Below, piece by piece: positions 8,417 through 44,877 of a stretch of DNA of 45,418 nt; position 1 is the first letter of the stretch, and every line of letters starts with the position of its first letter. The DNA lies in the IMG/VR virus record IMGVR_UViG_3300031972_002612, positions 1 to 45,418 of that record. One strand, given 5' to 3'. The position numbers and the translations under genes are program-made. The notes under the pieces are model-generated. The model did no database searches, had not been told where the DNA came from, and saw only the letters and a list, made by a program, of their open reading frames with translations. The stretch comes from a virus.

Positions 8417-8683
8417 CTACGATGAAGCTCCCAAGCAGGACGAGTCGCGAATCATTTTCCAAAAGCGGTATTTTTCCTCATTCCCCTCGGCCAACCACGC
8501 CTGCGCCACTTTGCCAGACGCCAGACATCGATCATGCGAGGTCGCATTGGGAGCGTTATTTACCATCGCGTATTGCTGTTCCGCCGTTTGAGCAGGACTG
8601 GGTTCGGACTGTTTGACGACGAAAATGACCACTAACAGTATGATGCAAGCGGCTATTGCATAGTTTCGCCAATCAAGATTCAT
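8417..8683 (-). CDS. Single-pass membrane protein coupled to the repressor gene, 88 aa
   Basis: The start at 8683 overlaps the cI stop as ATGA, so this gene is translated from the repressor transcript and should be made in the lysogen. Residues 8-25 are a strong transmembrane helix (IAACIILLVVIFVV) after a short N-terminus. The remaining 60 residues (HDRCLASGKVAQAWLAEG) would lie in the periplasm if the positive-inside rule holds and contain two cysteines. Position and topology match superinfection-exclusion or lysogenic-conversion proteins such as those downstream of cI in other phages. The function is inferred from position only. Confidence 0.7.
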   Translation of the reverse strand: MNLDWRNYAIAACIILLVVIFVVKQSEPSPAQTAEQQYAMVNNAPNATSHDRCLASGKVAQAWLAEGNEEKYRFWKMIRDSSCLGASS

Positions 8684-9351
8684 ACTCGACGTCCGAACCA
8701 TTCCACCCGTCCCATGATCTGAACCTCTTCAGCTGTCCGAACGTCTGGCTGATACCTAGAGTTTCCGCTTATAACTCGAATGGAAGGCGGCTCGGATCCA
8801 TGAACTTTCTGAAGATATTTGACGACATAGCCATCGCCATCCCAGATACAGAAGGCACCTGGCTGGGCAAGGGATCGCTTGCGTTTGTTCACGAGTAGTT
8901 GGTCACCGCTTTTGTACTCCGGCTCCATTGAGTCGCCTTCGACATCGACCAGAATCATATCATCTGGGAGGAAGCCAAGTGCTTCAATCAAGCGACGGGA
9001 GAACGCCACCATGCGCATCTCTCCCTCGCCCGTTCCTCCGCCCCCCATCCCGGCGTAGGTCGGTAGCTGCGCAATCATCACTGCATCTGAAGCGGGATCG
9101 AAATGACGATCATCATCCTCCAGGTGATCAGCACCCTCGGCATTAGCTAAAGCCCGTTCGACATATCGTAGCCAAGCCGGGACCTTTTTGCCGTTCTTGA
9201 TGAAGTTGAAAATGTGCTGCTGCTGCAGCTTCACCTCGAATCCGTCGGCGTCAGCAAGAGGCTGAGCACGTTTAGCTAACGCGCCAGGAGACAGATCCAA
9301 GCGCTCCATTTCCGCCTTCAGCCATGCAGCTCGTTGTCGCGCGATGTCCAT
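8680..9351 (-). CDS. cI: CI-type phage repressor with S24/LexA-like autoprotease domain, 223 aa
   Basis: Residues 1-75 form the DNA-binding part (MERLDLSPGALAKRAQ, then QQQHIFNFIKNGKKVP). The C-terminal domain is a LexA/S24 autoprotease: probable cleavage site Ala100-Gly101 in LPTYAGMGGGG, catalytic Ser141 in VEGDSMEPEY and catalytic Lys178 in DGYVVKYLQKV. It should hold the lysogenic state and be inactivated by self-cleavage under RecA* during DNA damage. The start at 9351 is chosen because the repressor fold begins there; the in-frame extension to 9507 would run through the operators and into cro. It is transcribed away from cro. Confidence 0.95.
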   Translation of the reverse strand: MDIARQRAAWLKAEMERLDLSPGALAKRAQPLADADGFEVKLQQQHIFNFIKNGKKVPAWLRYVERALANAEGADHLEDDDRHFDPASDAVMIAQLPTYAGMGGGGTGEGEMRMVAFSRRLIEALGFLPDDMILVDVEGDSMEPEYKSGDQLLVNKRKRSLAQPGAFCIWDGDGYVVKYLQKVHGSEPPSIRVISGNSRYQPDVRTAEEVQIMGRVEWFGRRV

Positions 9352-9362
9352 GCATCGGGCTT

Positions 9363-9379
9363 CTACAAAAAGTTTAGTC
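9363..9379. promoter_or_regulatory. Right operator 3, weak (CTACAAAAAGTTTAGTC)
   Basis: The left arm CTACAAA matches the other operators exactly; the right arm is degenerate. It lies just upstream of the cI start, the position from which a repressor would control its own promoter. Weakest of the five sites. Confidence 0.45.
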
Positions 9380-9389
9380 GCGTGAGGCT

Positions 9390-9406
9390 GTACAATATTC
9401 TTGTTG
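9390..9406. promoter_or_regulatory. Right operator 2 (GTACAATATTCTTGTTG)
   Basis: Matches the 9413-9429 operator at 12 of 17 positions and lies 23 bp from it, the same spacing as in the left pair. It overlaps the TTGATT -35-like hexamer (9404-9409) of the rightward promoter. Confidence 0.55.
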
Positions 9407-9412
9407 ATTAAA

Positions 9413-9429
9413 CTACAATTGTTTTGTAG
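9413..9429. promoter_or_regulatory. Right operator 1 (CTACAATTGTTTTGTAG)
   Basis: A 17-bp dyad with arms CTACAA / TTGTAG, of the same pattern as the left operator at 8329. It begins three bases after a TTGATT -35-like hexamer, inside the spacer of the candidate rightward promoter, and 11 bases before the cro start. Confidence 0.75.
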
Positions 9430-9439
9430 TGCTGGGATC

Positions 9440-9697
9440 ATGGCACAGTCAGCACTCCACCGCGCCGTTGAGGCAATGTCATCGCAGTCCGCTTTAGCGC
9501 GAGCCATTGGAACCTCTCAGCAACGACTCTGGAATTGGCTCGATAAGGGGAAGCCTATCCCTGCCGAATTCGTCCTTAAAACGGAAAAAGCTACTGGCAT
9601 TCCCCGGCATGAACTACGGCCGGACATATATCCGGCTCCCACAGCGAGCAGTGAGATGCCACCCGCCGAAGCCCCTTCTGAAGAGAGGGTGGCGTGA
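9440..9697 (+). CDS. cro: Cro/YdaS-like transcriptional regulator, 85 aa
   Basis: The helix-turn-helix SSQSALARAIGTSQQRLWNW, followed by LDKGKPIPAEFVLKTEKATG, is the signature of the Cro/YdaS family of small phage regulators. The start at 9440 is right after the operator array; an upstream in-frame ATG at 9401 would run through the operators. The Pro/Glu-rich C-terminal tail is dispensable-looking. As the first rightward gene it should repress cI and, in time, early transcription. It faces cI across the three-operator region, the classic immunity layout. Confidence 0.92.
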   Translation: MAQSALHRAVEAMSSQSALARAIGTSQQRLWNWLDKGKPIPAEFVLKTEKATGIPRHELRPDIYPAPTASSEMPPAEAPSEERVA

Positions 9698-20519: not shown

Positions 20520-22165
20520 TGGAGAAGCCGCGCATCAGGATTCGAGCCGATGGCACCTTGCCCGAGGCATCGAGGCAGGCGCTTTTCACAGCCTATGGCA
20601 ATGGGCGACGCGATGCCGGTCGCAGCGACCTCCCTGAAATGAACGGCTGGAACCCGCCTCCCGGCTTCGCAGGCTCGAACAGCTATGGCGAGCGCGACGC
20701 CATTCTGGGCCGCGCCCGGGATCTCGACAAGAACAACGCGTGGATCAATGGCGGTCTTGATCGGCGTGTCGAATCCGTCATCGGCGGATCGATCCGCCTG
20801 GCCGCCCAGCCTGAGCTGACCATCCTCAATCGTGATTACGACTGGCGGATGAAGTGGACCGCAAAGACGGAGGCCCGCTTCAAGGTCTGGGGCAAGGATA
20901 TCGAACGGCGCTGCGACGCGCGCCAGACCCTCACATTCGGCCAGATCGCCAAGCTCGCCTATCTCACCTACCTGCGCGATGGCGAAGCGGCAGCGGAGAT
21001 CCGCGATGACCAGCGTGGCATCTCCAACACCACCAACGTCCTGCTGTTCGAAGCCGAGCGCATCAGCACCCCAAGCGATCGTATGCTCGAAGAGGGGCCG
21101 CTGCTGCGCAATGGCATCGCGTTCGCCTCGAGCGGCGCACCGATCGGCTATTATGTGGCGTCTCGGCACCCCGCCGACAGCGCTGGCCGGCAGGGCGCGG
21201 ATCGCTGGGATTATGTTCCGCGCTTCGGGAAGACCGGACGAGCCAAACTGGTCCACGTCTTCAGCCCGCGCTTCGCCGAGCAGAATCGTGGCATATCGCG
21301 CTTGGCTGAAGCGATGGTTCCGGCCAAGATGCTGGACCGGGTGGACCGGGCCGAAGTGCAAGCGGCGCTCAAGGCCGCAATCCTGTCTTTCTTCATCAAG
21401 TCGCCCGGTTCGACCGACGATCTCCAGCAGGCGCTGGCGCCGACGGGCAACGATAATGAGGTCGACGCCTGGGTCGAACAGTATCTCGACTATCGCACCA
21501 AATCGCCGGTCCGCATGGACGCCGCGCAGATCATCCATCTGCTGCCTGACGAAGATGTGGTCACCCCGGATGCGAACCATCCCAATACCAACTATCCCGC
21601 CTTCGCCCGCTTCGTGCTCCAGAAGGTCGCCGCGTCGCTGGGCATCAGCTACCCGCAGCTGTCGCAGGACTGGTCAGGGATCAACTATTCGTCGGCGCGC
21701 GCGCTGCTGAACGAGCTCTGGCGCTCCTTCCTGGAAGACCGTGAGTTCTTCACCCAGCAGTTCTGCACACCGATCTATGCCGCCTGGCTGGAGGTCGAGG
21801 TTGCGAATGGCGACATCACGATCCCGGGCGGCCCCGCCAACTTCTACCGCAACAAGACGGCCATTTGCATGGCCGAATGGATCGGGCCCGGGCGCGGATC
21901 GGTCGATCCGCTCAAGGAGGCGAACGCCGACAATCTCGACACGGCGGCAGGGCGCAAGTCGACGGTCGAAGCCATCCTGGAGCGCGGCCGCGATCCTTCC
22001 GACGTGCTGGCCGAGGAAGACTGGTACCTCAAGGAACGGGCGAAACGGAGCATGGATGCTCCCAACCACAACGTGAAGGCCGCACCAACCGGCGCGGAAG
22101 ATGATCCAAGCGAGACAGAGCCGGCCGGCGTTCCGCCGGCGCAACCGGAGCGCAGGGCCGCATGA
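20519..22165 (+). CDS. Portal protein, lambda gpB family, 548 aa
   Basis: The pattern ARDLDKNNAWINGGLDRRVE, then SVIGGSIRLAA and LAYLTYLRDGEAAAEI, and the later RVDRAEVQAALKAAILSFFI and DWSGINYSSARALLNELWRS are diagnostic for the lambda-type portal family. Twelve copies form the DNA entry channel. The C-terminal tail (GAEDDPSETEPAGVPPAQPE) is disordered. The stop overlaps the protease start as ATGA. Confidence 0.95.
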   Translation: MEKPRIRIRADGTLPEASRQALFTAYGNGRRDAGRSDLPEMNGWNPPPGFAGSNSYGERDAILGRARDLDKNNAWINGGLDRRVESVIGGSIRLAAQPELTILNRDYDWRMKWTAKTEARFKVWGKDIERRCDARQTLTFGQIAKLAYLTYLRDGEAAAEIRDDQRGISNTTNVLLFEAERISTPSDRMLEEGPLLRNGIAFASSGAPIGYYVASRHPADSAGRQGADRWDYVPRFGKTGRAKLVHVFSPRFAEQNRGISRLAEAMVPAKMLDRVDRAEVQAALKAAILSFFIKSPGSTDDLQQALAPTGNDNEVDAWVEQYLDYRTKSPVRMDAAQIIHLLPDEDVVTPDANHPNTNYPAFARFVLQKVAASLGISYPQLSQDWSGINYSSARALLNELWRSFLEDREFFTQQFCTPIYAAWLEVEVANGDITIPGGPANFYRNKTAICMAEWIGPGRGSVDPLKEANADNLDTAAGRKSTVEAILERGRDPSDVLAEEDWYLKERAKRSMDAPNHNVKAAPTGAEDDPSETEPAGVPPAQPERRAA

Positions 22166-23088
22166 CCGACTTTCCTCTCTGGGCCGAGCGCCTTTACAAT
22201 CGTCCGCTGGCGCTTGACCGGTTCAAGAATGAGGTCCTGTGCGAGTTCGCCCAGACTCGCATTACCGGCGAACGCCCCAAGAAACTGACGGCCGCCACGC
22301 TCGATCGGGCCGATCTCGATCCCGAGCGCATTGAGGCAAACGAGGGCTTCGCCACCTTTCAGGGTCCCAACGGCGTCCGCCGCTGCTTTGCGGCTTATGG
22401 CGACATTGCCGTCATTCCGGTTCGCGGTTCGCTCGTGCATCGCGGCGGCTGGCTCGATGCGGAATCGGGCCTGGTGGGCTATGACTTCCTGCTGCGCCAG
22501 GCGCGCGCCGCCTCTACGGACGACAGCATCACCGGCATGATGCTACCGTTCGATTCCGGCGGGGGCGAGTGCGCCGGCATGTTCGCCGCGGCCGAGGAGC
22601 TTGCCAGCATGGCCAAGGCCGAGGGCGGCAAGCCGATCTATGCCTATCTCGATGAGCGGGCCTGCAGCGCGGCTTATGTGCTGGCCAGCGCCTGCGACAA
22701 GATCATGGGGCGCCGCGAAGTGATGGGCGGCTCCATAGCGGCCATCATCAACATGGTCGACAAGTCGAAGATGTACGAGAAGGCCGGGCTGGAGCCTATC
22801 GTGATCCGGGCCGGCTGGGCCGACCGGAAGGCTCGCTGGAGCGGTGTGGAGCCTGTCGACAAAGAGACAATCAGCCGGCTGGAAGAGATTGTCGATGAGG
22901 CCAGCGAGCAGGTGGTGGAGTTCGTCGCGGCGATGCGCGGCGATCGCGGCGTGACCGCCAAGTCCCTCAAGGACCTGCGCGGCGAGGTCTTCACCGGCAA
23001 CGACCTGCTCAAGTTCGGCCTCATCGACCGCATCGCCTCCGAGCGTGAAGCCTGGGACGCGCTGATCGCCGAAGCCCGGTCTGCCTGA
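22162..23088 (+). CDS. Head maturation protease, S49/gpC family, 308 aa
   Basis: The S49 (SppA-like) domain is clear: IAVIPVRGSLVHRGGW, LPFDSGGGECAGM, the nucleophile Ser169 in ERACSAAYVLASACDK and the Lys region NMVDKSKMYEKAGLEP (candidates Lys203 and Lys207). GGSIAAII replaces the more usual GSIGV. The C-terminal part (VFTGNDLLKFGLIDRI) also fits. The protein cleaves scaffold and other head proteins inside the prohead. It lies between portal and scaffold. Confidence 0.93.
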   Translation: MTDFPLWAERLYNRPLALDRFKNEVLCEFAQTRITGERPKKLTAATLDRADLDPERIEANEGFATFQGPNGVRRCFAAYGDIAVIPVRGSLVHRGGWLDAESGLVGYDFLLRQARAASTDDSITGMMLPFDSGGGECAGMFAAAEELASMAKAEGGKPIYAYLDERACSAAYVLASACDKIMGRREVMGGSIAAIINMVDKSKMYEKAGLEPIVIRAGWADRKARWSGVEPVDKETISRLEEIVDEASEQVVEFVAAMRGDRGVTAKSLKDLRGEVFTGNDLLKFGLIDRIASEREAWDALIAEARSA

Positions 23089-25868: not shown

Positions 25869-26331
25869 GCCGATGGCAGCCGTGCGGAAGGTGCAGGCCG
25901 CCATCATGGGGGCCATTGCCGTGGTCCGTTCCGACCTCACCGGCTATGCTGATCGCTCCACCGCCGAACCACTAAGCGACGGTGAGTGGCCCGGCTACGT
26001 CATCCGCTATGAGGTGAAGTTCCATCTCTCACCCGAACTGGGCCAGTTCTTCAACGATGCGCTCTTCACCTTCGAGGTGCAGAGCGGCAACACCGCCGGC
26101 GCGTCGCTGGATCAGATCAACCAGCAGGCGATCACCGACATCTCCAATGCCCTGCAGGCGGACCCCACGCTGGGCGGCATGCTCGAAGACATTCAGCCGG
26201 TCGGTTCCGACAACAGCCAGCCCGACAGCGCGGACGTCGGGTCAGCCGTGCTTCAAGTCCGCGCCACCTATTACACGCTGGTCCGCAATCACGAGGTGAT
26301 TGTTGGGCACGGCGGCCAGCTCTTTCCTTAA
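25861..26331 (+). CDS. Tail terminator protein, gpU-like position, 156 aa
   Basis: I prefer the GTG start at 25861, six bases after GGAGGT and overlapping the FII-like stop; the ATG at 25873 is the alternative. The sequence (KVQAAIMGAIAVVRSDLTGY, IRYEVKFHLSPELGQF, AVLQVRATYYTLVRN) has the alternating beta pattern of tail terminator or tail completion proteins. It sits between the connector and the tail tube, where gpZ and gpU occur in lambda. The function is inferred from position. Confidence 0.65.
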   Translation: MPEPMAAVRKVQAAIMGAIAVVRSDLTGYADRSTAEPLSDGEWPGYVIRYEVKFHLSPELGQFFNDALFTFEVQSGNTAGASLDQINQQAITDISNALQADPTLGGMLEDIQPVGSDNSQPDSADVGSAVLQVRATYYTLVRNHEVIVGHGGQLFP

Positions 26332-26348
26332 CCACCGGAGAAACGACC

Positions 26349-26591
26349 ATGGCTGACACGCCAAGCGCGCCGCCGTTGCCCGACGGCAGCGTGGACTTCA
26401 ACGCGATCCATGCCGCCGCCCGGCAGAATCACGACCTCGACAAGGCCGTGGCCGAGGCAACATTCGTCCATCCCGACAAGCTGGCCGCAGAAAAGTCGGC
26501 CGCCAAGGCTGCAGCCGAAGAGGCGAAGGCCGAGCGGGAGCCCACCACCGAAACCAGGCCCGCCGCAAAGGCTGGCAGCAAGGAGTCCTGA
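26349..26591 (+). CDS. Small helical hypothetical protein, 80 aa
   Basis: The sequence is Ala/Lys/Glu-rich (AEKSAAKAAAEEAKAEREP), with a short ordered N-terminus (LPDGSVDFNAIHAAARQNHD). The start follows CCGGAGAAACG. It lies three bases before the tail tube gene and may be an accessory or chaperone to it. No family is recognised. Confidence 0.65.
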   Translation: MADTPSAPPLPDGSVDFNAIHAAARQNHDLDKAVAEATFVHPDKLAAEKSAAKAAAEEAKAEREPTTETRPAAKAGSKES

Positions 26592-26594
26592 TCC

Positions 26595-27785
26595 ATGGGC
26601 TTGAAAGCCAACAAGACGGCGCTCGCCCTCGCGCAGCAGCCCATCATCGACACGTTCGTCCAGCCGTCCGCCTCCACCGAGGTCATGCCGGTGTCGAACG
26701 TGAACCTCAACATTCAGGGCGTGACGGTCCAGAATGAGGAATATACCGGCTCGATCCATCGCAACGGTGACGAGGTGATCGGGAAGAACGTCACCCTCTC
26801 GTTCAACGTGTATCTGCGCCCGCCTGCCGGCGGCGCTGTGCCGGGCGCAAACGCGTTTCTGCCTGGACGCATCCTCCAGGCGGCGAAGTTCACCGAGAAC
26901 CGCGTCTCGACCGCCATTCCTGCCGCGCCCGAGGCGATCGGCGCGAATCCCACCACCTCGGCGGTAACGCTGGGAACCGCTGCCGCCGCGACGGCCAACC
27001 TCTACAAGGGGCTGCTGGTGTCTCTCGCCAGCATCGGCGCCACCTACGCGCAGCGCCTGACGGCGATCCGCTCCTATACCGCGGGCAAGCTGGCCACGCT
27101 GATGGAGACGCTGGCGGCTGCGCCGACCGGCAATTATCAGATCGTGCCGCAGCTGGCTTATCAGCGCTCGATCAGCGAAACCGATCCCGATCCGCTGTCG
27201 CAGTCGATCTGGCTCGATGGGCTGCGCTTCGACCTGGTCAACATGCGGGTGTCGGGCCTGCGCATCAACCTGCCGGTGTCGACTCGCCAGCAGGGCGCCC
27301 TGCCGATGCTGGAAGTGACCATGACCGGCACCATCCAGGCGACGGCCGATGAAGCCACGCCCGCCATCCCTGCCCTGGGTGCGGTGCCCAAGTTCCGGGA
27401 CGGCGACCTGTGGATCGCCGGCAAGGCCGTTGGCGGGTCCTCGCTGATCATTGACCTTGGCCTGCGCACGGCCGCGCCCCCGAACCCGAACAAGCCTGAC
27501 GGCTCGGACGCCGAGGAGCTGGTCGAGAGCCGCACGACCATCACAGCCGATCTGCAGAAATACAGGAAGGCGGTCTTCGACACGATGGCGCTGGCCGATG
27601 CGCAGGCGCAGCACGCCGTGTGGGCGCAATATGGGTACGGTCCGGGCGCCGTGGTGAGCGTGAACGTGCCCGACGCGCGCTTCAACTATCGATCGCCCAA
27701 CATCGGGCAGGACCATGTGACCGAAGCCGGCGACCTGTTCGTCGATGCCTTCGATCGCAACGTTTCCATCGTCTTCCCCTTCTGA
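26595..27785 (+). CDS. Major tail tube protein, 396 aa
   Basis: It sits where lambda has V. The N-terminus (VMPVSNVNLNIQGVTVQNEE) and later YTGSIHRNGDEVIGKNVTLS are of the tail-tube type, with a beta-rich core and a long central insertion (residues 75-240). SIWLDGLRFDLVNMRVSGLR, NLPVSTRQQGALPMLEVTMT and FRDGDLWIAGKAVG continue the beta pattern. At 396 residues it is larger than lambda gpV (246), which suggests an added domain. The hexameric tube is expected from position. Confidence 0.8.
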   Translation: MGLKANKTALALAQQPIIDTFVQPSASTEVMPVSNVNLNIQGVTVQNEEYTGSIHRNGDEVIGKNVTLSFNVYLRPPAGGAVPGANAFLPGRILQAAKFTENRVSTAIPAAPEAIGANPTTSAVTLGTAAAATANLYKGLLVSLASIGATYAQRLTAIRSYTAGKLATLMETLAAAPTGNYQIVPQLAYQRSISETDPDPLSQSIWLDGLRFDLVNMRVSGLRINLPVSTRQQGALPMLEVTMTGTIQATADEATPAIPALGAVPKFRDGDLWIAGKAVGGSSLIIDLGLRTAAPPNPNKPDGSDAEELVESRTTITADLQKYRKAVFDTMALADAQAQHAVWAQYGYGPGAVVSVNVPDARFNYRSPNIGQDHVTEAGDLFVDAFDRNVSIVFPF

Positions 27786-27798
27786 TCCGGAGCAATCT

Positions 27799-28563
27799 GT
27801 GGCCTCCATCCCTCTCGAATCCTCCCACATCAAGCGATTCACCCCCGCCCTTTTCGCTGACACCGAAGGCGCACCTGCCTTCCAGCTCAAGGCGGGGTCG
27901 CGCCGCGACCGCCTGCGCCATCAGGAGATCATGGCCGAAGAAAAGGTTCAGCACTTCGACCAGGCCAGCATCCGCGCTGAAACTCTAAAGGGCCTGGAAG
28001 CTCTGTGGTCGCCCGACGATTTCGAGCAGTGGGAGCCTCGACTGCGAGCCTTCTGGGATGCGCGTGATGACTGGGCGAAAGAGAATGAGAACGCGGAAAA
28101 GCCGACGCCGTTCGACTATACGGACTTTCCGGAAAGCGAGATCCGCGCCCTGGCGGCACGGGTGGCAGAGAGTTGGCCGCCGCTGCGCAAGATGGCTGTG
28201 GCTAATCTCAAGTTCCAGCGCGAATTTCCGAAGCTGGTCGCCAGCATCGTGCTGGTCGGGTGGACAGGTGTCGAAACGCCGGTTCAACGCGCGGATGGGC
28301 TGATGTCGCTCGACGCCATCGATGACCTCGAACGGGAGATGGCGAAGCGCGAGGAAGAGCTGACCGGGAAGGCGAACGGCAACGCATTTGCCGAGCTGAT
28401 GATCGAATGCACCGGCCGCCTCTTCCTGAGCCCGAGCGCGGAAAAAAACTCCGCATCGCCGCCGCCGTCATCCACAAGCCTGCCGACTTCGAACAATGGG
28501 CAGGCGTCAGCAGCTGGTATGTCGAAGGTGTCGGCGAGTTCCGAACCAACCCCCGAGATCTGA
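27799..28563 (+). CDS. Tail assembly chaperone (gpG-like), zero-frame product, 254 aa
   Basis: GTG at 27799 follows CGGAG at about seven bases. The helical product (VASIPLESSHIKRFTPALFA, WDARDDWAKENENAEK, PLRKMAVANLKFQREFPKLV, AFAELMIECTGRLFL) is in the place of lambda G. Near the end, the slippery heptamer A AAA AAC at 28443-28449 lies in the right phase to move some ribosomes to the -1 frame and make a longer G-T fusion. The zero-frame end after the slip (SPPPSSTSLPTSNNGQAS) is low in complexity, as in other chaperones. Confidence 0.85.
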   Translation: MASIPLESSHIKRFTPALFADTEGAPAFQLKAGSRRDRLRHQEIMAEEKVQHFDQASIRAETLKGLEALWSPDDFEQWEPRLRAFWDARDDWAKENENAEKPTPFDYTDFPESEIRALAARVAESWPPLRKMAVANLKFQREFPKLVASIVLVGWTGVETPVQRADGLMSLDAIDDLEREMAKREEELTGKANGNAFAELMIECTGRLFLSPSAEKNSASPPPSSTSLPTSNNGQASAAGMSKVSASSEPTPEI

Positions 28564-28736
28564 TCGAAGACGGCGATTTGGAACTGATCCACATCTATCG
28601 ACAGTGTGATCGTGGAATGATGGGGTATGTCTGGCCAGATGGCGGGGCGCTGCTGGACCAGCCGAACGTGCTGATCCAGGCCTTCAATATAGTCGGCAAT
28701 GCCTTTCATGAGTTGAAAAAGGCGGACTCGGTCTAG
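28407..28736 (+). CDS. Frame of the -1 extension of the tail chaperone (gpGT-like)
   Basis: This frame is entered by -1 slippage at 28443-28449 rather than from its own ATG. From the slip, the sequence reads LRIAAAVIHKPADFEQWAGV, then WYVEGVGEFRTNPRDLIEDG and a helical end. The predicted fusion is 217 zero-frame residues plus 95 from this frame, 312 in total. It contains the part that lambda gpGT uses to bind the tail tube and tape measure. An ordinary ORF caller would report it as a separate gene starting at 28407, which I think is wrong. Confidence 0.8.
   Translation: MHRPPLPEPERGKKLRIAAAVIHKPADFEQWAGVSSWYVEGVGEFRTNPRDLIEDGDLELIHIYRQCDRGMMGYVWPDGGALLDQPNVLIQAFNIVGNAFHELKKADSV
28443..28449 (+). 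promoter_or_regulatory. Slippery heptamer for -1 frameshift (A AAA AAC)
   Basis: Zero-frame codons are gaA AAA AAC: the canonical XXXYYYZ pattern with X=A, Y=A, Z=C. The two chaperone frames overlap over 157 bases here, and only the -1 frame continues into a folded tail. A GC-rich stretch (CGCCGCCGCCG) follows within about 15 bases and may form the stimulating structure. Confidence 0.85.
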
Positions 28737-28786
28737 CCGCGCTGCATCCTGATTTCATGAAGTAGCGAAGTGGCGCTGAGGCAGCG

Positions 28787-28812
28787 AAAGGCGGTCAGCA
28801 ATGGCCGCCTTT
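28787..28812 (+). terminator. Hairpin after the tail chaperone (AAAGGCGG...CCGCCTTT)
   Basis: AAAGGCGG (28787-28794) pairs with CCGCCTTT (28805-28812) around TCAGCAATGG, followed by CTTATTTC. It looks like a weak rho-independent terminator on the plus strand. The loop and following SD-ATG layout match those of the second hairpin at 29465. Confidence 0.6.
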
Positions 28813-28835
28813 CTTATTTCTAACGGAGAAAATGA

Positions 28836-29132
28836 ATGGGAAGCGTCTATCGCACCTGCGCGTGCTCAGATGAGATCTGCCGCAGAGACGGCTGTCGCCT
28901 AGTTCGGAATGAACACATTCACCAGCGCGTCTCCGGAACCCAGCTTAAGGTCCACCACATTGTCGACGATGCCAAATTTCTTCGCCTCTTTGGGGGAGAA
29001 ATTGAAGTCGACGGCGCCAAAACGCTGCGCAACATCGTCGTCCGACCAGTTCGCAACGGTTTTGAATGGCTCGGCGATAAGATCCGTATTGGGCGCACGC
29101 TGTCCCGCATGTGGCCCTTCGGAAAAGGTTGA
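28836..29132 (+). CDS. Doubtful Cys-rich ORF under the ClpP-like gene, up to 98 aa
   Basis: The ORF starts GSVYRTCACSDEICRRDGC-like after GGAG, just downstream of the first hairpin, which is the layout of the real tail gene after the second hairpin. From 28899 on it runs antisense to the ClpP-like gene, so most of its length may be chance. The first 22 residues could be what remains of a real small gene cut by the inserted cassette. Confidence 0.25.
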   Translation: MGSVYRTCACSDEICRRDGCRLVRNEHIHQRVSGTQLKVHHIVDDAKFLRLFGGEIEVDGAKTLRNIVVRPVRNGFEWLGDKIRIGRTLSRMWPFGKG

Positions 29133-29417
29133 TTGATGGGTGGTGAACATGCTCAGCGGTGCGGCTGTGCGTTTTCGCCCCGCCAGAAAGATGGTCACGG
29201 CGATGGACCCGCATGGCCCAGCCGCGTGCGTGTAAACGGGTATGGGCAGCATATCGAGATAGTTGAAGAGCCCTATGCCGGACGTGACATCTCCGCCTCC
29301 GCTGACGATGCACAATGTCAACGCCGGCTCACCATCGGCTACAGCGGCCCAAGCCAAAGTCTGTGCATTGCGGACCCCCTCAGGCGTTATGGCGCCCTGG
29401 TAGAATAGATATCTCAT
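28899..29417 (-). CDS. ClpP-like serine protease, opposite strand in tail operon, 172 aa
   Basis: It has the ClpP/crotonase fold: GAITPEGVRNAQTL, LCIVSGGGDVTSGIGLFNYL, then the nucleophile Ser71 in AGPCGSIAVTIFLAG and His94 in FTTHQSTF. The spacing fits ClpP (nucleophile in G-x-x-x-S-x-A, His about 23 residues later), so the protease is probably active. The start at 29417 has GGGGGAAG before it; an upstream in-frame ATG at 29477 overlaps the second hairpin. It is the only minus-strand gene in the late region and so must have its own transcript: a moron-like cassette. Its target is unknown. Confidence 0.85.
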   Translation of the reverse strand: MRYLFYQGAITPEGVRNAQTLAWAAVADGEPALTLCIVSGGGDVTSGIGLFNYLDMLPIPVYTHAAGPCGSIAVTIFLAGRKRTAAPLSMFTTHQSTFSEGPHAGQRAPNTDLIAEPFKTVANWSDDDVAQRFGAVDFNFSPKEAKKFGIVDNVVDLKLGSGDALVNVFIPN

Positions 29418-29464
29418 GCTTCCCCCGAATCGAGACTGGTTCGGGATCATTGTGAACAGCCTCG

Positions 29465-29490
29465 GGGCGCCCAGCAATGGGCGCCCTTTT
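29465..29490 (+). terminator. Hairpin before the minor tail gene (GGGCGCCC...GGGCGCCC)
   Basis: GGGCGCCC (29465-29472) pairs with GGGCGCCC (29479-29486) around AGCAAT, followed by TTTTC. Terminator-like on the plus strand. It lies 14 bases before the next start (29504), so it could also affect translation or processing of the tail mRNA. Confidence 0.6.
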
Positions 29491-29503
29491 CATTGGAGCT
29501 TGC

Positions 29504-30211
29504 ATGGCGCGAGTGATCATCTCAGGGCCGGATCAAAGCCGGTTCCGGGACTTCGAACAGTTTTGCCGGCGGAAGCTGGAGCAGGTAGCGTTGCAGGCCT
29601 CGCACGAAGGCGGACGCCTGGCGCTGAGCAAGATCCGGCAGCAGATGGCGGGTGCGAACCTCGGGCGGCTGGGCAACGCTCTTGGCAGCAACTCTGACCT
29701 GTCGGAGGGCCGAGGTGTGTTTCGCCGCGCCAATGGCTTTTCGGCATCGTCGAACGTGCATATCCGTAGCGGTTCAGAACGAGCGCGCGGAGCCATCAAA
29801 AGCTATACCGAGGGCGCCACCATCCGTGGCGTCAAATCTCCATGGCTTTGGATCCCCGCAACGGAGATGCAGCGCCGCGTCAAGGGCGGCTGGCGGCTAA
29901 CGCCCGGCCGTTGGCAATCCAGCGGCCTTGAGGCCCGGTATGGACCGTTGTTCATGATCCCCGGCCGCCATGCCGGCGAACAGCTGCTCGTCTTCAAGGA
30001 TGTCACGGCTCGCCTCTATGGCAAGCCGAACTTCCGCCCCATCCCCAAGAGCGGCCGGATTAGGGCGGGTCGGGAAGTTCGTGAGACCGTGGTGGCCTTT
30101 GTCGGCATTCGGCAGACGTCCCGCGCCGCTCGGGTCGATGTGCCCGCCATCATGACCGAAGTCGAAAACGCACTGCCCTCCCTCATCATGTCCGCCTTCA
30201 GGAAGGTATAA
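29504..30211 (+). CDS. Minor tail protein, 235 aa
   Basis: I start at 29504 (MARVIISGPDQSRFRD) after TTGGAGC; the ATG at 29477 overlaps the hairpin. The protein begins with a helical part (EQFCRRKLEQVALQAS) and continues with beta-rich segments (GVKSPWLWIPATEMQRRVKG, YGPLFMIPGRHAG). It is similar in type to DUF6441-like phage proteins that sit before the tape measure, but I hold this only loosely. It is in the main tail operon, two bases before the tape measure gene. Confidence 0.65.
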   Translation: MARVIISGPDQSRFRDFEQFCRRKLEQVALQASHEGGRLALSKIRQQMAGANLGRLGNALGSNSDLSEGRGVFRRANGFSASSNVHIRSGSERARGAIKSYTEGATIRGVKSPWLWIPATEMQRRVKGGWRLTPGRWQSSGLEARYGPLFMIPGRHAGEQLLVFKDVTARLYGKPNFRPIPKSGRIRAGREVRETVVAFVGIRQTSRAARVDVPAIMTEVENALPSLIMSAFRKV

Positions 30212-30213
30212 CT

Positions 30214-33200
30214 GTGGCCGAAAGCAACGTTTTTCCTGCCTTCATTCGCCTCCAGGTCGATGATCAAGACGGATTTGCCCAGTTCAACACGAAGCTGGCG
30301 AACGAGCTGAACCGCGCCAAACGTACCACAGAGGTTTCGCTTGGTGAAATCGAGCGTGTGATATCCGGCGCCATCACTGGCGGACAGATCGGCAATTTCA
30401 CGGTCGACACCAAGGGGGCACGCGAAGCCGCTGTTGCCTCGGAGCAGCGCGCAGAGAGCGCGCGCAAGATGGCGGTGGCTCTTCAAGTCGCCGCCGCCAG
30501 CGAGAACAACTATTCGGCCGCCGCTCAGGCAGCCGTCGTTGCAGCGGCGCGAGTGGCGACGGAGGAGACGGAAGCCGCCAGGGCCGCCCGTGTCCATGCC
30601 GATGCGGTCGACTATCTGAAGCAGGCGCTGGATCGTCAGGGCGTCAGTGTCAACGATAGCGTCGATCACAATAGCCGGCTCACGCGGAGCAACAGCCAGT
30701 TGCGCATGGCCTATGTGCAAACGGGCCAACAGCTGCAGGACGTCACCATCAGCATGATGGGCGGCCAACGCGCATCGGTCGTTTTCGCACAGCAGTTGCC
30801 GCAGCTTGCCTTCGCGCTTTCCGGCTTGGGTATCCAGGCAGATGGGACGCAACGTGGCATCGGCCGCCTTGCAACGTTTTTGTCAGGACCTTGGGGCGTG
30901 GCCTTCACTGGCGCGGCATTCGCCGTCGGCATGTTGGTTGAGAAGCTGTGGGACCAAGATGATGCATCGAACAAGGCCGAAAAGTCGAATATCGACTTTA
31001 GCAATAGCATTGTAGCGGCCACTGGGTTGGTCGGAAACTACACGACAGCGATCGAAAAGCTTGATCAAGCGACGCGCGGATTGATCAATACACAGGCATT
31101 GATGATCGACAATTCTCTTCTGTACGCACAGACGGCAGAAAGCCAGCTGTCATCTCAAATCAGCGCTATCGACAAGCAAATGACCGCGTTGAACCAGAAG
31201 CCATCTTGGCTCCAAAATATGCCTGGGTTCTTCGATACGACTGGCTCGGCTTTGATCAAGCTCAGACAGGAACGCGCAGAAGCGGAATCGCAGCTGGCAT
31301 CGGTTCGCCGATCGCTGGCCGCTGCACAAACAGCGTCTGAAGCGCGCTCAGCCGCCGAATTGGCAGATCCAGACCTAGCTGCTCGTGGAAAAATCGAGCG
31401 AGAGCGCGCGCGTCTCATCCAACAACGGCAGGAGACTATCGCGCAAGGACCAGTCCCGCTGGCGAATTTCACCCCGCTCTCGAAGACGGATTTCGACCGG
31501 CAGATGGCCGACTTGGCGCGTCAAGAGAAGGCCCTCAAAGACATCCGATCAGGTTCGTCTGTGTCGCGGTTGAACGCACAAGCGAAATTGGATGCGGCAG
31601 ACTCGCCCATCGAGATCGCGCGCGCCGAGCTAGCATTGGAGAAGGCGAAGAGTGCAGAGCTTCTCAAGCAGGGCAAAATCGACGAACAAGGATATCTCGC
31701 CCGCGTCCGTTCGAAAGAAGTTGAGGTTCAGCGTCAGCAAGGTTTGAAAGAAGCCACTGCGCAAGGCGCAAAGGCCCAACGCGAATACGAGCGGATGGAG
31801 AAATTCATCGATCGCTCCGGGGAGAGTGTCCAGCGGATAAATGAGCGCTGGAACGATCAGCCAAAGCTTTTGGATCAAGCTGCGAAAGATGCTCGCGCAC
31901 TCGACGATGTCATTGCTGGTATTGATGCACGACTTGCTAACTCGAAACTGACTTCTGCCCAACGGGAACAGCTGCAGGCCACGAGGAGGGAAGCTGAGGC
32001 CACGGCCGATGTCATCCAGAACGGCCTCACCAAACCCTATCGCGATCTGATCAAGCAAATGGATCAGGACCTGACCATCGGCCAGTTGATCCTCGACGGT
32101 CGGGAAGCCGAGGCCGATGCACTACGCACTATCCTGGCGCTGAAGGAAAAGACCGGCTCCGTCGACGCCGAGCAGGTGCGGAACATTGCGGAGCTGACCG
32201 AGAAACTTCGCGAACAAGAGCAGATGATGCAAAAGCTGCGCGATCAGCAGCAACCGTATCTCAATGCCCTTGCCGACATGCGGTCTAGCATCACCGAGAC
32301 ATTTGCGGATTTCCGTACCGAAGGAGCCAGCGCGCTCGGCGATTTCGTCAGCCGGTTCCGCAGGACATTCGACAATCTGTCCGCCGAGGTTCTGTTCGAA
32401 ACCACGTTCGGCGACATATTCCGGGAGATCGAGAACGGCATCACCGGGCGCGACAAGGAGTTGCGGACCGACGTAATCAATAAAGCGCTGCTGAGCACCG
32501 CCGCCAAGGCGGAGGTGCTGGGGAACAGCATGGCGGAGGCTGCCAACAAGATCGCCAATGCGCCGGTGGCGGCGGCAAACGACAACAGCGCGCAGGAGGC
32601 ATATGCCGAGATCGTGGTGACCGGTCGTAAGGCCATGGACAAGCCGGTCGAATTCCTAGCCGGCACCCTGGAGAAACTATTCAGGAAATTCCTGCCGGAC
32701 AATCTGGCCAAGGAGGTCGGCAAATATGTCTCCGAAGCCGTGCAGGGTGCAGCCTATGGCCAGATGGCAGGCGGGCTGCTGCTGGGCAGTTCAAACAGCA
32801 AGATCGGCAGTTCGATCGGGGGCGCGGCCGGCAACATTGTCGGAAAGGAGCTGACCAAGAATTTGACCGGCCTGCTGGGCAAGTTCGGCGGTCCGCTCGG
32901 CTCCATCGCCGGCGGCATCCTGGGCGGCGCAATTGGCGGCCTGTTCACCTCCGCCAAATGGGGCACCGCAGCTGTGTCCGGCAACAGTGATGGCGACGTT
33001 TCGGTCGGTGGAAACAAATCCGCCTATCGCAGCAATGCGAGCCTGGCGGCGACCTCGATCCAAAGCGGGCTGGCGTCGATCGCAGAGCAGTTCGGCGTTG
33101 ATGTGGGCGACTATGCCGTGTCAATCGGCCAGTATAAAGGCAAATGGCGCGTCAGCACGACGGGGCGGACCGGCAAGCTGAAGGGTGGATCAAGCCGCAC

Positions 33201-34065
33201 AGACATTCGCGACTTCGGCGAAGAAGGCGCGGAGGACGCCATCAAATATGCCATCGCCGACGCGGTCAAGGATGGCGCTCTGCAAGGCCTGCGCGCCTCG
33301 ACCCAGGCGCTGCTGGCGGCCTCTGACGATGTCGAAGCCCAGCTGCAGAAGGCGCTGGATTTCGAGGACGTCTTCTCCCGCCTCAAATCGTACAAGGACC
33401 CGGTTGGCGCGGCGCTCGACACCCTCGACAAGGAATTCAAGCGACTGCAGGGCATTTTCGAAGAGGCCGGCGCCTCTGCGGAGGAATACGCCCAGTTGGA
33501 AGAGCTGTATGGCATTGAACGCGCCGCTGCGGTCAAGGAGGCGGCGGAGAAGGTGACAGCCTCGCTGCAGTCGCTGTTCGACGATCTGACCGTGGGCAAT
33601 GACGCACGATCCCTGCGGGACCGGCTGGTCGAAGCGCAGGCGGCCTATAATCCCCTCGCCCAGCGCGTGGCGGCCGGCGATACCACGGCCTATGACGATT
33701 ATGCCGACGCGGCCCAGACGTTGCTGGACCTGCAACGTCAGATTTATGGCTCCAGCGAGGAATATTTTCAGCTGCTGGATCAGGTGACGGCGCTTACAAA
33801 GACCCGCATCGATGCAGAGGCCAATATCGCCTCGATTTCCGAAGGACGGGACCCACTTTTTGCAAGCGATACCAGCTTGGCCCCGGTGGTCAGCGCAACG
33901 GAGTCGCAGACGGCTCAACTGGTGTCGGTGCTCAAGACGGAACTTGGCGCACAGCGGTCTGATCTGCAGGCAATCTCCAGCAACATCATTGCCCTGACGC
34001 GGTCGATATCAGTTCAAGGCGGATCGAATGACGGCGGTCTCACCGTAGTCAGGAACAACTTCTAA
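30214..34065 (+). CDS. Tape measure protein, 1283 aa
   Basis: GTG at 30214 follows AGGAAGG. The long helical body (SAARKMAVALQVAAASENNY-type segments, LEKAKSAELLKQGKIDEQGY, ESVQRINERWNDQPKLLDQA) and a Gly-rich hydrophobic region (LGSSNSKIGSSIGGAAGNIV, GPLGSIAGGILGGAIGGLF; about residues 855-915) are typical. Tail length in siphophages scales with this protein; 1283 residues would predict a tail somewhat longer than that of lambda (gpH, 853), taking roughly 0.15 nm per residue as the usual rule. The C-terminal 350 residues look like a separate folded domain. It ends TAA directly against the next ATG. Confidence 0.93.
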   Translation: MAESNVFPAFIRLQVDDQDGFAQFNTKLANELNRAKRTTEVSLGEIERVISGAITGGQIGNFTVDTKGAREAAVASEQRAESARKMAVALQVAAASENNYSAAAQAAVVAAARVATEETEAARAARVHADAVDYLKQALDRQGVSVNDSVDHNSRLTRSNSQLRMAYVQTGQQLQDVTISMMGGQRASVVFAQQLPQLAFALSGLGIQADGTQRGIGRLATFLSGPWGVAFTGAAFAVGMLVEKLWDQDDASNKAEKSNIDFSNSIVAATGLVGNYTTAIEKLDQATRGLINTQALMIDNSLLYAQTAESQLSSQISAIDKQMTALNQKPSWLQNMPGFFDTTGSALIKLRQERAEAESQLASVRRSLAAAQTASEARSAAELADPDLAARGKIERERARLIQQRQETIAQGPVPLANFTPLSKTDFDRQMADLARQEKALKDIRSGSSVSRLNAQAKLDAADSPIEIARAELALEKAKSAELLKQGKIDEQGYLARVRSKEVEVQRQQGLKEATAQGAKAQREYERMEKFIDRSGESVQRINERWNDQPKLLDQAAKDARALDDVIAGIDARLANSKLTSAQREQLQATRREAEATADVIQNGLTKPYRDLIKQMDQDLTIGQLILDGREAEADALRTILALKEKTGSVDAEQVRNIAELTEKLREQEQMMQKLRDQQQPYLNALADMRSSITETFADFRTEGASALGDFVSRFRRTFDNLSAEVLFETTFGDIFREIENGITGRDKELRTDVINKALLSTAAKAEVLGNSMAEAANKIANAPVAAANDNSAQEAYAEIVVTGRKAMDKPVEFLAGTLEKLFRKFLPDNLAKEVGKYVSEAVQGAAYGQMAGGLLLGSSNSKIGSSIGGAAGNIVGKELTKNLTGLLGKFGGPLGSIAGGILGGAIGGLFTSAKWGTAAVSGNSDGDVSVGGNKSAYRSNASLAATSIQSGLASIAEQFGVDVGDYAVSIGQYKGKWRVSTTGRTGKLKGGSSRTDIRDFGEEGAEDAIKYAIADAVKDGALQGLRASTQALLAASDDVEAQLQKALDFEDVFSRLKSYKDPVGAALDTLDKEFKRLQGIFEEAGASAEEYAQLEELYGIERAAAVKEAAEKVTASLQSLFDDLTVGNDARSLRDRLVEAQAAYNPLAQRVAAGDTTAYDDYADAAQTLLDLQRQIYGSSEEYFQLLDQVTALTKTRIDAEANIASISEGRDPLFASDTSLAPVVSATESQTAQLVSVLKTELGAQRSDLQAISSNIIALTRSISVQGGSNDGGLTVVRNNF

Positions 34066-37000
34066 ATGCTGCATATCCTCGCGGAAGTCGCTCCCCTCAA
34101 AATTGCTGACGGGAGCCGGCCGGTGCTGCGCGCGTCATCGGCGCAAGACAGGCGGCTCAACGGTGTTGCCGGTCAGCGCTGGTGGCCTGCCATTACAAAG
34201 CTGCCTTCCCTCGCCATTCCTCTGTTCGACGGAGATTTTACAGAAGAGGTTGCGCCGGGCAGCGCCAGTTTCACTTTGAGGCTCGAGGCGCTGGCCAACC
34301 TGGACGCATCCGTCCGCGCCTATCGCTGGGCGGGTGCAGCTGTCTCGCTCTATGCCGTTGACGACGGACTGAGCCTCAACGCGGCTGGCAGCTACGACGT
34401 CCCCAGTCTCGATGCTACGCGGATATTCAAGGGTCGGGTCGAGAGCTTCGCGATCGATGGCGGCGCACTTAACATCACCGCCGACGTCGACCAAGAGCCT
34501 TTCAACAAGGACGTTCTCAAGCTCACCTATGCCGGCACGGGCGAGGCCGAGGGCGGCGAGGACCTGAAAGGGCGCCTGAAGCCCTGGATCTTTGGCCGTG
34601 CGCTTAATGTCGAGCCGATCCTGATCGACAGTGTCGACAATGTCGTACAGTTCTCGGCCTACTCCATTCAAGGCATCTCGGCATTGTACGAGCGCGGCTC
34701 CTCCTTCGGGCCCAGCATCGGCAATTATTCGACCTATGCGCAGTTGGTGGCCGCCACCATCCCGGCGGGCCGGTGGGCAACCTGCCACGCACTGGGCATG
34801 GCGCGCCTTGGCGCCCCGCCATATGGCGTCATCACCGGCGACGTCGACGGCGACAACGCTACCGGGTTCATACGGCGAACAGGCGCCATCATTCGGCGGG
34901 TCGCGCTAGCGTCCGGCGTGGCACTGGAGCAGATCGACACATCCTCGCTCAATGCGTTGGACGCCGCTGTCCCCTACAACATCAATCTGGTGCTCACCGA
35001 GCAAATCAGCGTGCTCGATCTGGCTCGGCGGCTTGCGCTTCCCTGCAACGCTCAGGCCGGTCTCGACTTCCAGGGGCGCCTGTTTGCCGTCCGGCCCTCG
35101 ATCGGCTCCCCAAGCCTCACGCTGGACGCGCAGGGGAGGCAGCTTCCCCCCGTCCGCCGCTGCCAGGAAGCCGACGTCAGCGCACCGTACAAGCGCATCA
35201 TGTTCGGTGCGAACCGGAGCTGGCGGGTTCACACGTTCGATGAGATCGCCTTCGACGCTGAATTGATCGACCGCGGCGATTATGATCCCGCCAAAACCTA
35301 CCGACGCGGCAACATTGTCAGCCTGCCGAATGGATCGCGCTGGCTGTATGTCTCCGACACACCAAAAAAGGGCTCGCTCCCCTCCGCGACCAACACCGAC
35401 TGGGAGCTGATGACTGGCGCCATCACTGCCGGCAACATCACCTATGAAGACGGCACTCCGGTCGAGGATCTGAAGCCCGCAGAGCCCGGTGCCACTGACG
35501 GCGCTTCCCCAGAAGAAAAGGACCAGCTGTCGCAGTTAGAGGCGGATTCGGCCGCCGCGCAAGTCCGAATGGAACAGGCCGACGCCAAGATCGCTGACCT
35601 GTTCGAAACCTATGGCGATAGTGCCAGCGCCGCTCAATCCGCGTTGGCAGCGGCGAACTCGGCGCAGACGGCGCAGGATGCCGATGACAATGCCCAGCAG
35701 GCCCGCGACCTTGCCCAGGGCGCTCGGGACGCGGCAGAGCAAGCGTCGACCAATGCCAGCAATTTCGCCAACGCCTCCAGCCTGTCGGCAACGGCGTCGG
35801 ATCAGGCGCGCGGGCTGGCAGTCACCGCCAAAACGGCGGCAGAGACGGCGCGCAATCAGGCCCAGAGCGCAAAGGCTGATGCTGAGGCGGCGTTCAACAA
35901 TTCGGCGACGGCGCGCGACGCCTCCGTCGCGGCGAAGACGGCGTCGGAGACGGCACGCAACCAGGCCCAGAGCGCAAAGGCAGACGCCGAAACCGCGTTC
36001 AACAATTCGGCGACGGCGCGCGATGCCTCGGTCGCAGCCAAGACGGCGGCCGAACAGGCCCGCGATAATGCCCAGACCTATGCCAGCAACGCCAACGGCA
36101 GCGCGACGGCGGCGGCCGGATCTGCCAGCACGGCGACGCAGAAAGCAACCGATGCAGGCAACAGCGCTACGGCAGCCGCCGCGTCGCAGGTGTCGGCCGC
36201 GTCGTCCTATGCCGACGCCCAGGCGCTTGCCTATGTCAGCGCGCCGCTGCTGATCTCGACTTTTGCGGAAGGTGCGAAGCACTGGACCGCGTCGCGATTC
36301 GGCAATCCGACCACGGTGGCGAGCGTCGGCTCGGGTGTCGCTGTCAACGATGCGGATCTTGGGGCGGCATTGGAGTGGAATAGCTGGACCGCCGCTGGCA
36401 CCAATGTCCTGTCCAAGGGTGTCATCCAGATCGTGCCGGGCCGCATCTATGAGGTGACGGCAAAGTTCAAGATCACGGCATCCGACGGCAGCGTCGGCAT
36501 GAACGTCATCCTGGGGACGATGGCGGCCAACTATGCCCAGGCATCGGTCAGCTATGTCGGCAGTCCTTCGATCGACTGCAACGGCACCGGCATCTTCACG
36601 CTGACGCGCAAGTTTGCGATCGGCGGAGGCACCAACATCACCTCGATCCCCGTGGACGTCCTGACCGCCCGTCCCGGCCTGCGCATGACCACGACCGAAA
36701 CCGGCGTCGTCCTGCGCGTGAGTGAGATCCGCGTCAACGATGTGACCGAGCGCGAGGCGGCAAGCAACCATGCCTCAGCCGCCGCGACCAGCGCGTCGTC
36801 AGCCTCGACCAGTGCGAGCGATGCCGGCGAGTCCGCGACAGCAGCGCAGGAGAGCGCGACCAACGCCGAGACTAGCGCGGGCAATGCCTCGACCAGCGAG
36901 CAGAACGCATCGACGTCGGAGACGAACGCGGCCGGCAGTGCGAGCGCGGCGCTCATCAGCCAAGGTGCAGCGGCAACCAGCGCGAATAATGCGGGGGATA

Positions 37001-40000
37001 GTGCCGATGCGGCCAGCACCTCCGCGCAGACGGCATCGAGCAAGGCTACCGAGGCAGGACAGAAGGCGAGTGCGGCAGCCCAGAGCGCGACCAATGCAGC
37101 GACGTCAGCCGGCAACGCCAGCACTTATGCGACGCAGGCTTCAGACAGTGCTGATGATGCATCGGGAAGCGCCAATTCGGCGAGCATCAGTGCGGGCGCG
37201 GCGGCGCAGTCGAAGAATGATGCTGCAGGCAGTGCCACGGCAGCCGCGGGATCTGCCTCGACCGCGTCGACCAAGGCGAGTGAGGCGGGGCAAAGCGCGA
37301 CGGCGGCGAACACCAGCGCCGTCTCGGCAAACTCGACCTACAGCGCGATGATCCAGTCGCAGGCGGCATCGCCCGTTCTGCCTCATGACTTTTCCGATGG
37401 TTTGAACCAGTGGACCGGGGATCGTGGCGGCAGGCCGGATCAGGTCGCCGTCGTCAACGGGACCGTCATCGGCGGCGACGGCAACTTCGGTCGCTGCGCC
37501 GATTTTACCTGGTCGGTTGCGGGCATGAACGTCTTGACGCGCGGGACGGTTCGAGCGACGGCAGGGCGCTATTATGAGGTTCGCGCGCGCATCCGCGTGC
37601 GTCAGGGCGACGGCAGCTACAGCTTCAACATTGTTGGCGTCGGGCTGGATGGCAACGGTGCCGAGATCGCCACCGCGCTGTCGGGCACCGCCACCGTTGA
37701 TGGCACCGTCAGCGAGATCGTCGGGCTGTTCTCCAGCGCCGCGCTGAATGGTGCCGCCGCGTGGCCTTCGGGTAGCATCTCCCTGCGCTTCGGTCTGCGC
37801 CTCAACAGCGCCGAAACGGGCATGATCGTCCGCGTCGGTTCGATCCGCGTCGTTGATGTGACGGAGCGTGTCGCCTCGGCGCTCAGCGCCTCAGCCGCCG
37901 CGACCAGCGCATCTTCGGCATCCACCAGTGCGGGCGCGGCCGGTCAGTCGGCAACAGCCGCGCAGGAAAGCGCCACCAACGCCGAGACTAGCGCGGGCAA
38001 TGCCTCGACCAGCGAGCAGAACGCATCGACGTCGGAGACGAACGCGGCCGGCAGTGCGAGCGCGGCGCTCATCAGCCAAGGTGCAGCGGCAACCAGCGCG
38101 AATAATGCGGGGGATAGTGCCGATGCGGCCAGCACCTCCGCGCAGACGGCATCGAGCAAGGCTACCGAGGCAGGACAGAAGGCGAGTGCGGCAGCCCAGA
38201 GCGCGACCAATGCAGCGACGTCAGCCGGCAACGCCAGCACTTATGCGACGCAGGCTTCAGACAGTGCTGATGATGCATCGGGAAGCGCCAATTCGGCGAG
38301 CATCAGTGCGGGCGCGGCGGCGCAGTCGAAGAATGATGCTGCAGGCAGTGCCACGGCAGCCGCGGGATCTGCCTCGACCGCGTCGACCAAGGCGAGTGAG
38401 GCGGGGCAAAGCGCGACGGCGGCGAACACCAGCGCCGTCTCGGCAAACTCGACCTACAGCGCGATGATCCAGTCGCAGGCGGCATCGCCCGTTCTGCCTC
38501 ATGACTTTTCCGATGGTTTGAACCAGTGGACCGGGGATCGTGGCGGCAGGCCGGATCAGGTCGCCGTCGTCAACGGGACCGTCATCGGCGGCGACGGCAA
38601 CTTCGGTCGCTGCGCCGATTTTACCTGGTCGGTTGCGGGCATGAACGTCTTGACGCGCGGGACGGTTCGAGCGACGGCAGGGCGCTATTATGAGGTGCGC
38701 GCGCGCATCCGGGTTCGCCAGGGCGATGGCAGCTACAGCTTCAACATCATCGGCGTCGGGCTGGACGGCAACGGCGCCGAGATCGCCAACGTGCTTTCAG
38801 GGACGGCGACAGTCACCGGCACGGTCAGCGAAATCGTCGGGCTATTTTCCAGCGCCGCGCTGAATGACGCGACCGCATGGCCTTCCGGCAGCGTATTTCT
38901 GCGCTTCGGCCTGCGCCTCAACAGCGCGGAAACAGGCATGATCGTCCGCGTCGGATCGATCCGCGTCATTGATGTGACGGAGCGTGTCGCCTCGGCGCTC
39001 AGTGCATCGGCAGCGGCGACCAGCGCGTCGTCAGCCTCGACCAGTGCGAGCGATGCCGGCGAGTCCGCGACAGCAGCGCAGGAGAGCGCAACCAACGCTG
39101 AGACTGCGGAGGGCAACGCCAGCACCTACGCAAATCAGGCGTCCGAGAGTGCTGATGACGCATCTGGGAGCGCGTCTTCGGCGAGCCTCAGCGCCACGGC
39201 AGCTGCTAAATCAAAAGACGATGCTGCGGGCAGCGCCACGGCAGCCGCCGGATCTGCCTCGACCGCGTCGACCAAGGCGAGTGAGGCGGGGCAAAGCGCG
39301 ACAGCCGCCAATACGAGCGCGGTGGCAGCCAACGCGACGTTCACGAACCTCAAGAATACGGTCGCGAACCAGAGCCAGGCGCTTCCCTTCGACTTCAAGG
39401 ATGGCAACACCTACTGGACCAATGACCGAACCGGCGCTCCCGATGCACGGCCTCCTGCAAGCGGCTCCCTGTTCGCCAATGACCCGATCTTCGGCACGGC
39501 GTCGTGGGCGATTGATGACTGGAACACGGCTGGTCAGAACATTCTGACGCGCGGTGTCGTGCCGATTATCCCCGGCCGCTTCTATGAGGTGCGCGCCCGG
39601 TTCCGTGTGGCCTCCGGCGTGCCGCTCGATTTCAACCTCGTGGGCGCGGGCATGGCGGCCGACTATAGCGGGACGGCGTCCGCCTACCGACCCGGCCCCT
39701 CCGTCACCGTGACGGGCGCCGGCATCTATGAATTGGTCGGGTTGTTCTCGGACACGACGGCCAACGGTGCAACCGCGTTCACGTCGGAGGCGGTCTGGGC
39801 GCGGTTCGGCCTGCGCCTCAACAGCAACAAGGCGACCACGGTTCGGGTCCAGTCGATCCGCGTAACCGATGTGACCGACAAGCTGGCAGCGGCCAACAGC
39901 GCGTCGGCGGCCAGCGGATCGGCGAGCAGTGCGTCGGGATCGGCGACGGCAGCCGGAGCCAGCGCGGATTCTGCCAGTGGCTCCGCTAACACTGCCTCGA

Positions 40001-44440: not shown

Positions 44441-44521
44441 CGCGCCGCGGCTCGCGCGGCCGTGCCCTCATTTATTGCCCAATCGTCGATCATGACGATC
44501 ATTTAACATCTGAAAGGACCA

Positions 44522-44857: not shown

Positions 44858-44877
44858 CCGCTGATCAGGAGGTGTCC

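Follow-up and report, generated by a model that had tools for sequence, protein, structure and literature searches.

An inverted, stand-alone ClpP-like peptidase gene inserted among the tail genes of a temperate phage, and the recurrence of this layout in distantly related prophage ClpPs

The window (the whole stretch of 45,418 nucleotides analyzed here, IMG/VR record IMGVR_UViG_3300031972_002612) carries, between two of its tail genes and against their direction, a gene for a stand-alone S14 peptidase of 172 amino acids resembling ClpP. The clpP-like gene is an insertion in this phage. With moderate confidence we regard it as a horizontally acquired moron for an N-terminally truncated member of the ClpP family, inverted and expressed from the prophage, whose product would form an open-pored barrel and/or mix into the ClpP of the host. 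The protein probably acts in the phage-carrying bacterium rather than in building the phage; its expression, oligomeric state, host ClpP partner and benefit are what we infer in the following. A summary of the features is shown in Table 1.

Table 1. Position of the features discussed in the window and in three records of E. coli prophages
Feature	Record	Position	Strand	Remark
CI-like repressor	window	8680..9507	-	last recognized minus-strand gene before the late region
S49 head-maturation protease	window	22162..23088	+	the phage's own; between portal and capsid genes
Tail assembly chaperone, G-like frame	window	27745..28563	+	named from its position; conserved in L004-L008
Tail assembly chaperone, T-like frame	window	28407..28736	+	overlaps G; putative frameshift arrangement
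Insertion interval	window	28737..29503	.	from the stop of the T frame (28736) to the ATG of the next tail gene (29504)
Terminator-like hairpin, left cassette edge	window	28786..28813	+	in late-gene direction
Small Cys-rich ORF, start (MGSVYRTCACSDEICRRDGC...)	window	28836..28898	+	enters clpP antisense
clpP-like gene, stand-alone S14 peptidase, 172 aa	window	28899..29417	-	ATG at 29417
Terminator-like hairpin, right cassette edge	window	29464..29487	+	in late-gene direction; just upstream of the next tail gene
Tail gene adjoining the insertion, PHROG 6367	window	29504..30211	+	directly after T in the relatives
Tape measure protein	window	30214..34065	+	
Inverted Arc/ClpP pair, E. coli	L113	6001-6785		
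Inverted Arc/ClpP pair, E. coli	L114	5785-6575		
Inverted Arc/ClpP pair, E. coli	L029	2696-3480		

Five related phages that share this gene order (L004-L008) were found by means of the tape measure protein and the neighboring tail gene. In these the distance from the T frame to the next tail gene is 0 to about 40 bp, as compared with 767 bp here, and CLP_protease (PF00574) yielded no match anywhere in their whole records. A comparison for presence or absence of the cassette in related phages, as proposed in the sequence-only reading, thus finds it in one of six, with the same junction empty in the other five. The insertion interval has a GC content below that of its surroundings. Description of the gene as a moron, likewise proposed in that reading, is well supported by its absence from the five relatives, the lower GC content, its inversion, the CI-like repressor and the phage's own head protease. 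The presence of the CI-like repressor also marks the phage as temperate. Among plasmids as well as named phages, the portal proteins closest to that of this phage are alphaproteobacterial, and a megablast of the late region against named phages gave no match. The largest tail protein (positions 34066-42786; 2,906 amino acids) has several long internal repeats and multiple matches to tail-fibre PHROGs; the repeats are modules of the form DFSDGLNQWT...DRGGRPDQVAVVNG, separated by Ala/Ser-rich stretches.

The clpP-like gene had been described from the letters alone as the only minus-strand gene among the late genes, and it is indeed the sole recognizable gene on that strand from the CI-like repressor to the end of the window. 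All recognizable late genes (terminase, portal, S49 protease, capsid, tail tube, chaperones, tape measure and tail fibre) lie on the plus strand; the further long minus-strand ORFs all overlap plus-strand genes, and the two scored at length (26328-27890 and 44503-45309) look non-coding. A good ribosome site (GGGGGAAGC-ATG) stands before the clpP-like ORF, which matches Pfam CLP_protease with E=6.9e-13 and 49.3 bits, the curated cut-off being 20.2. Among the six frames at this stretch, the clpP frame alone shows phage-like codon usage (+0.07 per codon), the remaining five scoring between -0.18 and -1.0. The GC content of the gene is 0.572, and its GC3 is 0.66 as compared with 0.70-0.86 in the structural genes. 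Coding on the plus strand in place of the clpP frame was rejected: the ORFs at 28836-29132 and 29133-29408 have negative codon scores, and the former yielded no match in Pfam or PHROG. The Cys-rich start of that ORF had no relatives among the loci compared and is possibly a remnant of another small gene.

An AlphaFold2 model of the 172-residue protein, of the kind called for in the sequence-only reading, has the ClpP fold (pLDDT 83.6, pTM 0.81), with low confidence at residues 91-110. In a Foldseek search the top matches of the model were all ClpP structures (best match 4e-14), with 9uxt (PpClpP1) in first place at a TM-score of 0.83; this rank may have been favored by the input alignment of the model, which consisted mostly of PpClpP1-like proteins. 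The PDB search by sequence also placed 9uxt at the top (2e-10). The catalytic residues were placed by alignment: Ser71 and His94 are intact, as had been claimed, and the third residue of the triad, Asp137, which the earlier reading had left out, is present as well. The protein starts at the first core strand and thus has neither the N-terminal axial segment nor helix A, and its handle (counted from His to a conserved Ala) comprises 51 residues as compared with 57 in one canonical ClpP and 59-64 in the relatives. Its score of 25.2 bits against the canonical ClpP equivalog lies far below the cut-off of 308.6 bits, and it falls below all canonical equivalogs. The claim that the peptidase stands alone, without a ClpX/ClpA partner, is right for the phage record, in the whole of which a profile search for unfoldases of the ClpX/ClpA type (AAA_2, PF07724) found none. 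In a tree dominated by long branches, the protein shares the side of an 89/85 branch with the prophage ClpPs, its own branch being long and weakly supported; a grouping with canonical ClpP obtained a p-AU of 0.356, and neither grouping was rejected.

The cassette is flanked by two terminator-like hairpins, which are 79% identical over 29 nt, have a common AGCAATGG core and rank at the top among such sites between 17 and 36 kb. Each is followed by a ribosome site and then an ATG. Since both read in the direction of the late genes, neither terminates the clpP transcript. They might be traces of the recombination by which the cassette arrived, or might limit transcription of the late strand across it. 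Together with their ribosome sites, the hairpins are possibly a duplicated leader used in the insertion. On the minus strand, the right hairpin overlies the region in which the clpP promoter is expected. The promoter of its own that the sequence-only reading had assigned to the gene is a presumed one, since a consensus scan upstream on the minus strand showed no sigma70-like promoter.

Close homologues of the protein were found neither in IMG/VR nor in one scan of GTDB genome contigs, and a degenerate DNA pattern for FLAG..RTA gave no match. Distant matches were the ClpP of a plasmid-borne Enterobacter prophage (42% over 85 residues) and that of P22-like phages of E. coli (39.5% over 76 residues). 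When the Enterobacter and E. coli prophage ClpPs were used as queries, dozens of viral contigs with a short stand-alone ClpP were retrieved. Identity between the 172-residue protein and the prophage ClpPs is about 25% (23-28%). The prophage family is recorded mostly under generic or wrong names; the record of E. coli phage phiv205-1, for example, names its ClpP 'head maturation protease'. A ClpP-like protein encoded on a Rhizobium plasmid (L026:3878-4549) carries at its N-terminus what looks like a signal or Tat-like segment (MLNRRNVCLGLSALAIGTF).

In 28 of the 30 loci examined, the clpP gene of the relatives runs against the majority of its neighbors, the strands of the latter being taken from long ORFs rather than curated genes; two E. 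coli chromosomes with annotation give the same picture. Inversion was found in 23 of 24 clusters at 95% identity, in all 17 clusters at 80% (one-sided sign test, p = 8e-6) and in all seven at 65% (p = 0.008). The surroundings vary: the gene adjoins the tape measure gene in two loci (L100, L101) and the P22 antirepressor gene in a third (L066), and sits between the small terminase and spanin genes in a fourth (L054). In E. coli prophages, the ClpP-like gene often comes after one for an Arc-family repressor, and the two are inverted as a pair at the P22 ant/arc site, with the tailspike and ejection genes on either side. This unit is present, as a whole or in part, in 149 of 5,426 complete E. coli genomes, some of which hold the Arc part only. 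In E. coli ATCC 11775, a gene for a YafO-family toxin (L113:6834-7283) lies directly downstream of the Arc/ClpP pair and converges with it. In the sequence-only reading, a stand-alone ClpP-fold peptidase in this place was not a pattern known as described. This is only partly right, since distant prophage ClpPs lie against their neighbors in 17 of 17 clusters and the inverted layout is thus a recurring one, found in many prophages of the enterobacterial type. A search of open-license papers yielded no description of ClpP morons.

Because the gene runs against the late operon, its independent transcription is most likely, and would take place chiefly from the prophage. The product is predicted to assemble into ClpP-type rings whose Ser-His-Asp site is intact. 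Feeding of the protein alone by an unfoldase is unlikely, since the axial loops and helix A, which meet ClpX/ClpA, are missing. It may act as a wide-pored barrel on peptides and unfolded protein; the option that we favor is that the subunit joins the putative host ClpP partner in mixed barrels, by which Clp proteolysis of the host would be altered in lysogeny, with possible consequences for stress response, prophage stability or phage infection. As the rings make contact through the handle, which falls 6-13 residues short of its length in the relatives, the protein may be unable to form double rings or to mix with host ClpP. Clp proteolysis governs stress responses and the turnover of toxin-antitoxin systems. 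In Staphylococcus aureus, ClpP and ClpX affect the induction and spontaneous release of prophages, loss of ClpP leading to lower titers of induced phage and higher spontaneous release (PMC10584840). As both titers and spontaneous release change with the loss of ClpP in that species, altered Clp activity of the host could benefit the prophage.

Several other explanations were weighed. The protein might process head or tail proteins in the lytic cycle, as most of its PHROG matches belong to 'head maturation protease' families and its gene lies among tail genes near the tape measure gene, like those of several prophage relatives. The phage, however, has its own S49 protease between portal and capsid genes, which makes a head-maturation role of the ClpP-like protein unlikely; moreover, the gene runs against late transcription, is absent from the five relatives, and its product scores 31.7 bits for the NCBIfam model of ClpP-related head maturation proteases (NF045542), the cut-off of which is 120 bits. 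A role as head protease was rejected on the grounds of the S49 enzyme, the inversion and the absence in relatives, and we consider a virion or assembly protease of any kind very improbable.

Inverted morons of late operons often act in superinfection exclusion or counter-defence, and the P22 ant/arc site, at which the ClpP/Arc pair of the E. coli prophages is located, is known for immunity and exclusion genes. A peptidase made by the lysogen might accordingly destroy a protein of the incoming phage or of host defence without the aid of an unfoldase; this appears unlikely, as PADLOC found no match to a defence system, no partner gene is present at the phage locus, and target specificity is not obvious for an axially open ClpP barrel. 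It is also doubtful that the gene is a neutral or decaying passenger without useful expression. Its occurrence in one of six related phages, its strong divergence, the shortened handle and the outcome of the promoter scan are in keeping with such a passenger, but the triad is complete, the frame intact, the codon usage phage-like and the ribosome site good, and so consistent an inversion of related clpP genes across many prophages speaks for selection acting on expression. For the proposed acquired moron acting in lysogeny, a wider and more tentative extension can be put forward: several groups of temperate phages may repeatedly have gained a short, unfoldase-blind ClpP, inverted and expressed in lysogeny, which would enter the ClpP barrel of the host and retune Clp proteolysis to the advantage of the prophage, the present gene being a far-diverged case that kept the full triad.

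If true, a prophage-borne ClpP subunit would be the phage's direct handle on the Clp machine. The published biochemistry of PpClpP1, with its mixing into host ClpP and raised ClpX-dependent activity, makes the mixing idea directly testable; the same protein, which was published as a drug target in bacteria, resembles the E. coli prophage form.

Among known systems, the ClpP-related head maturation proteases (NF045542, PHROG 94/133) show weak profile similarity to the 172-residue protein, whereas the position and strand of its gene are wrong for one of them. Canonical ClpP (TIGR00493, PRK00277) has the fold and the Ser-His-Asp triad in common with it; relative to canonical ClpP, about 25-30 N-terminal residues are missing, the handle is short and there is no linked clpX. 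The best solved match, by sequence as well as by fold, is PpClpP1 of Pseudomonas plecoglossicida (9uxt; 36% identity over the 90 residues compared), which is likewise short and lacks the N-terminal axial module, with its Ser and His at 73/96 as compared with 71/94; its third triad residue is Pro in place of Asp137, and the handle is shorter in the phage protein. PpClpP1 was presented as a chromosomal paralogue, with no mention of phage, and forms a homotetradecamer that lacks the N-terminal module and has a pore of 42.7 A (PMC12900304). Its peptidase activity is low and depends on Ser and His; alone it does not bind ClpX, and with the canonical ClpP2 of its host it forms a heterotetradecamer of higher activity with ClpX (PMC12900304). 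Over 90 residues, PpClpP1 and the E. coli prophage ClpP share 51% identity, and PpClpP1 itself may have come from a prophage. The enterobacterial-type prophage ClpPs (phiv205-1, Enterobacter; L028, L029, L040-L112) are stand-alone, short and inverted in the late operon, as here, and share the short N-terminus, both starting at the first core strand; where annotated, no unfoldase gene adjoins them, and some lie beside the tape measure gene. They differ in the third triad residue, which is Ser, Ala or Thr in 22 prophage relatives and Asp137 here, and those of E. coli are paired with an Arc-like repressor, which the present phage lacks.
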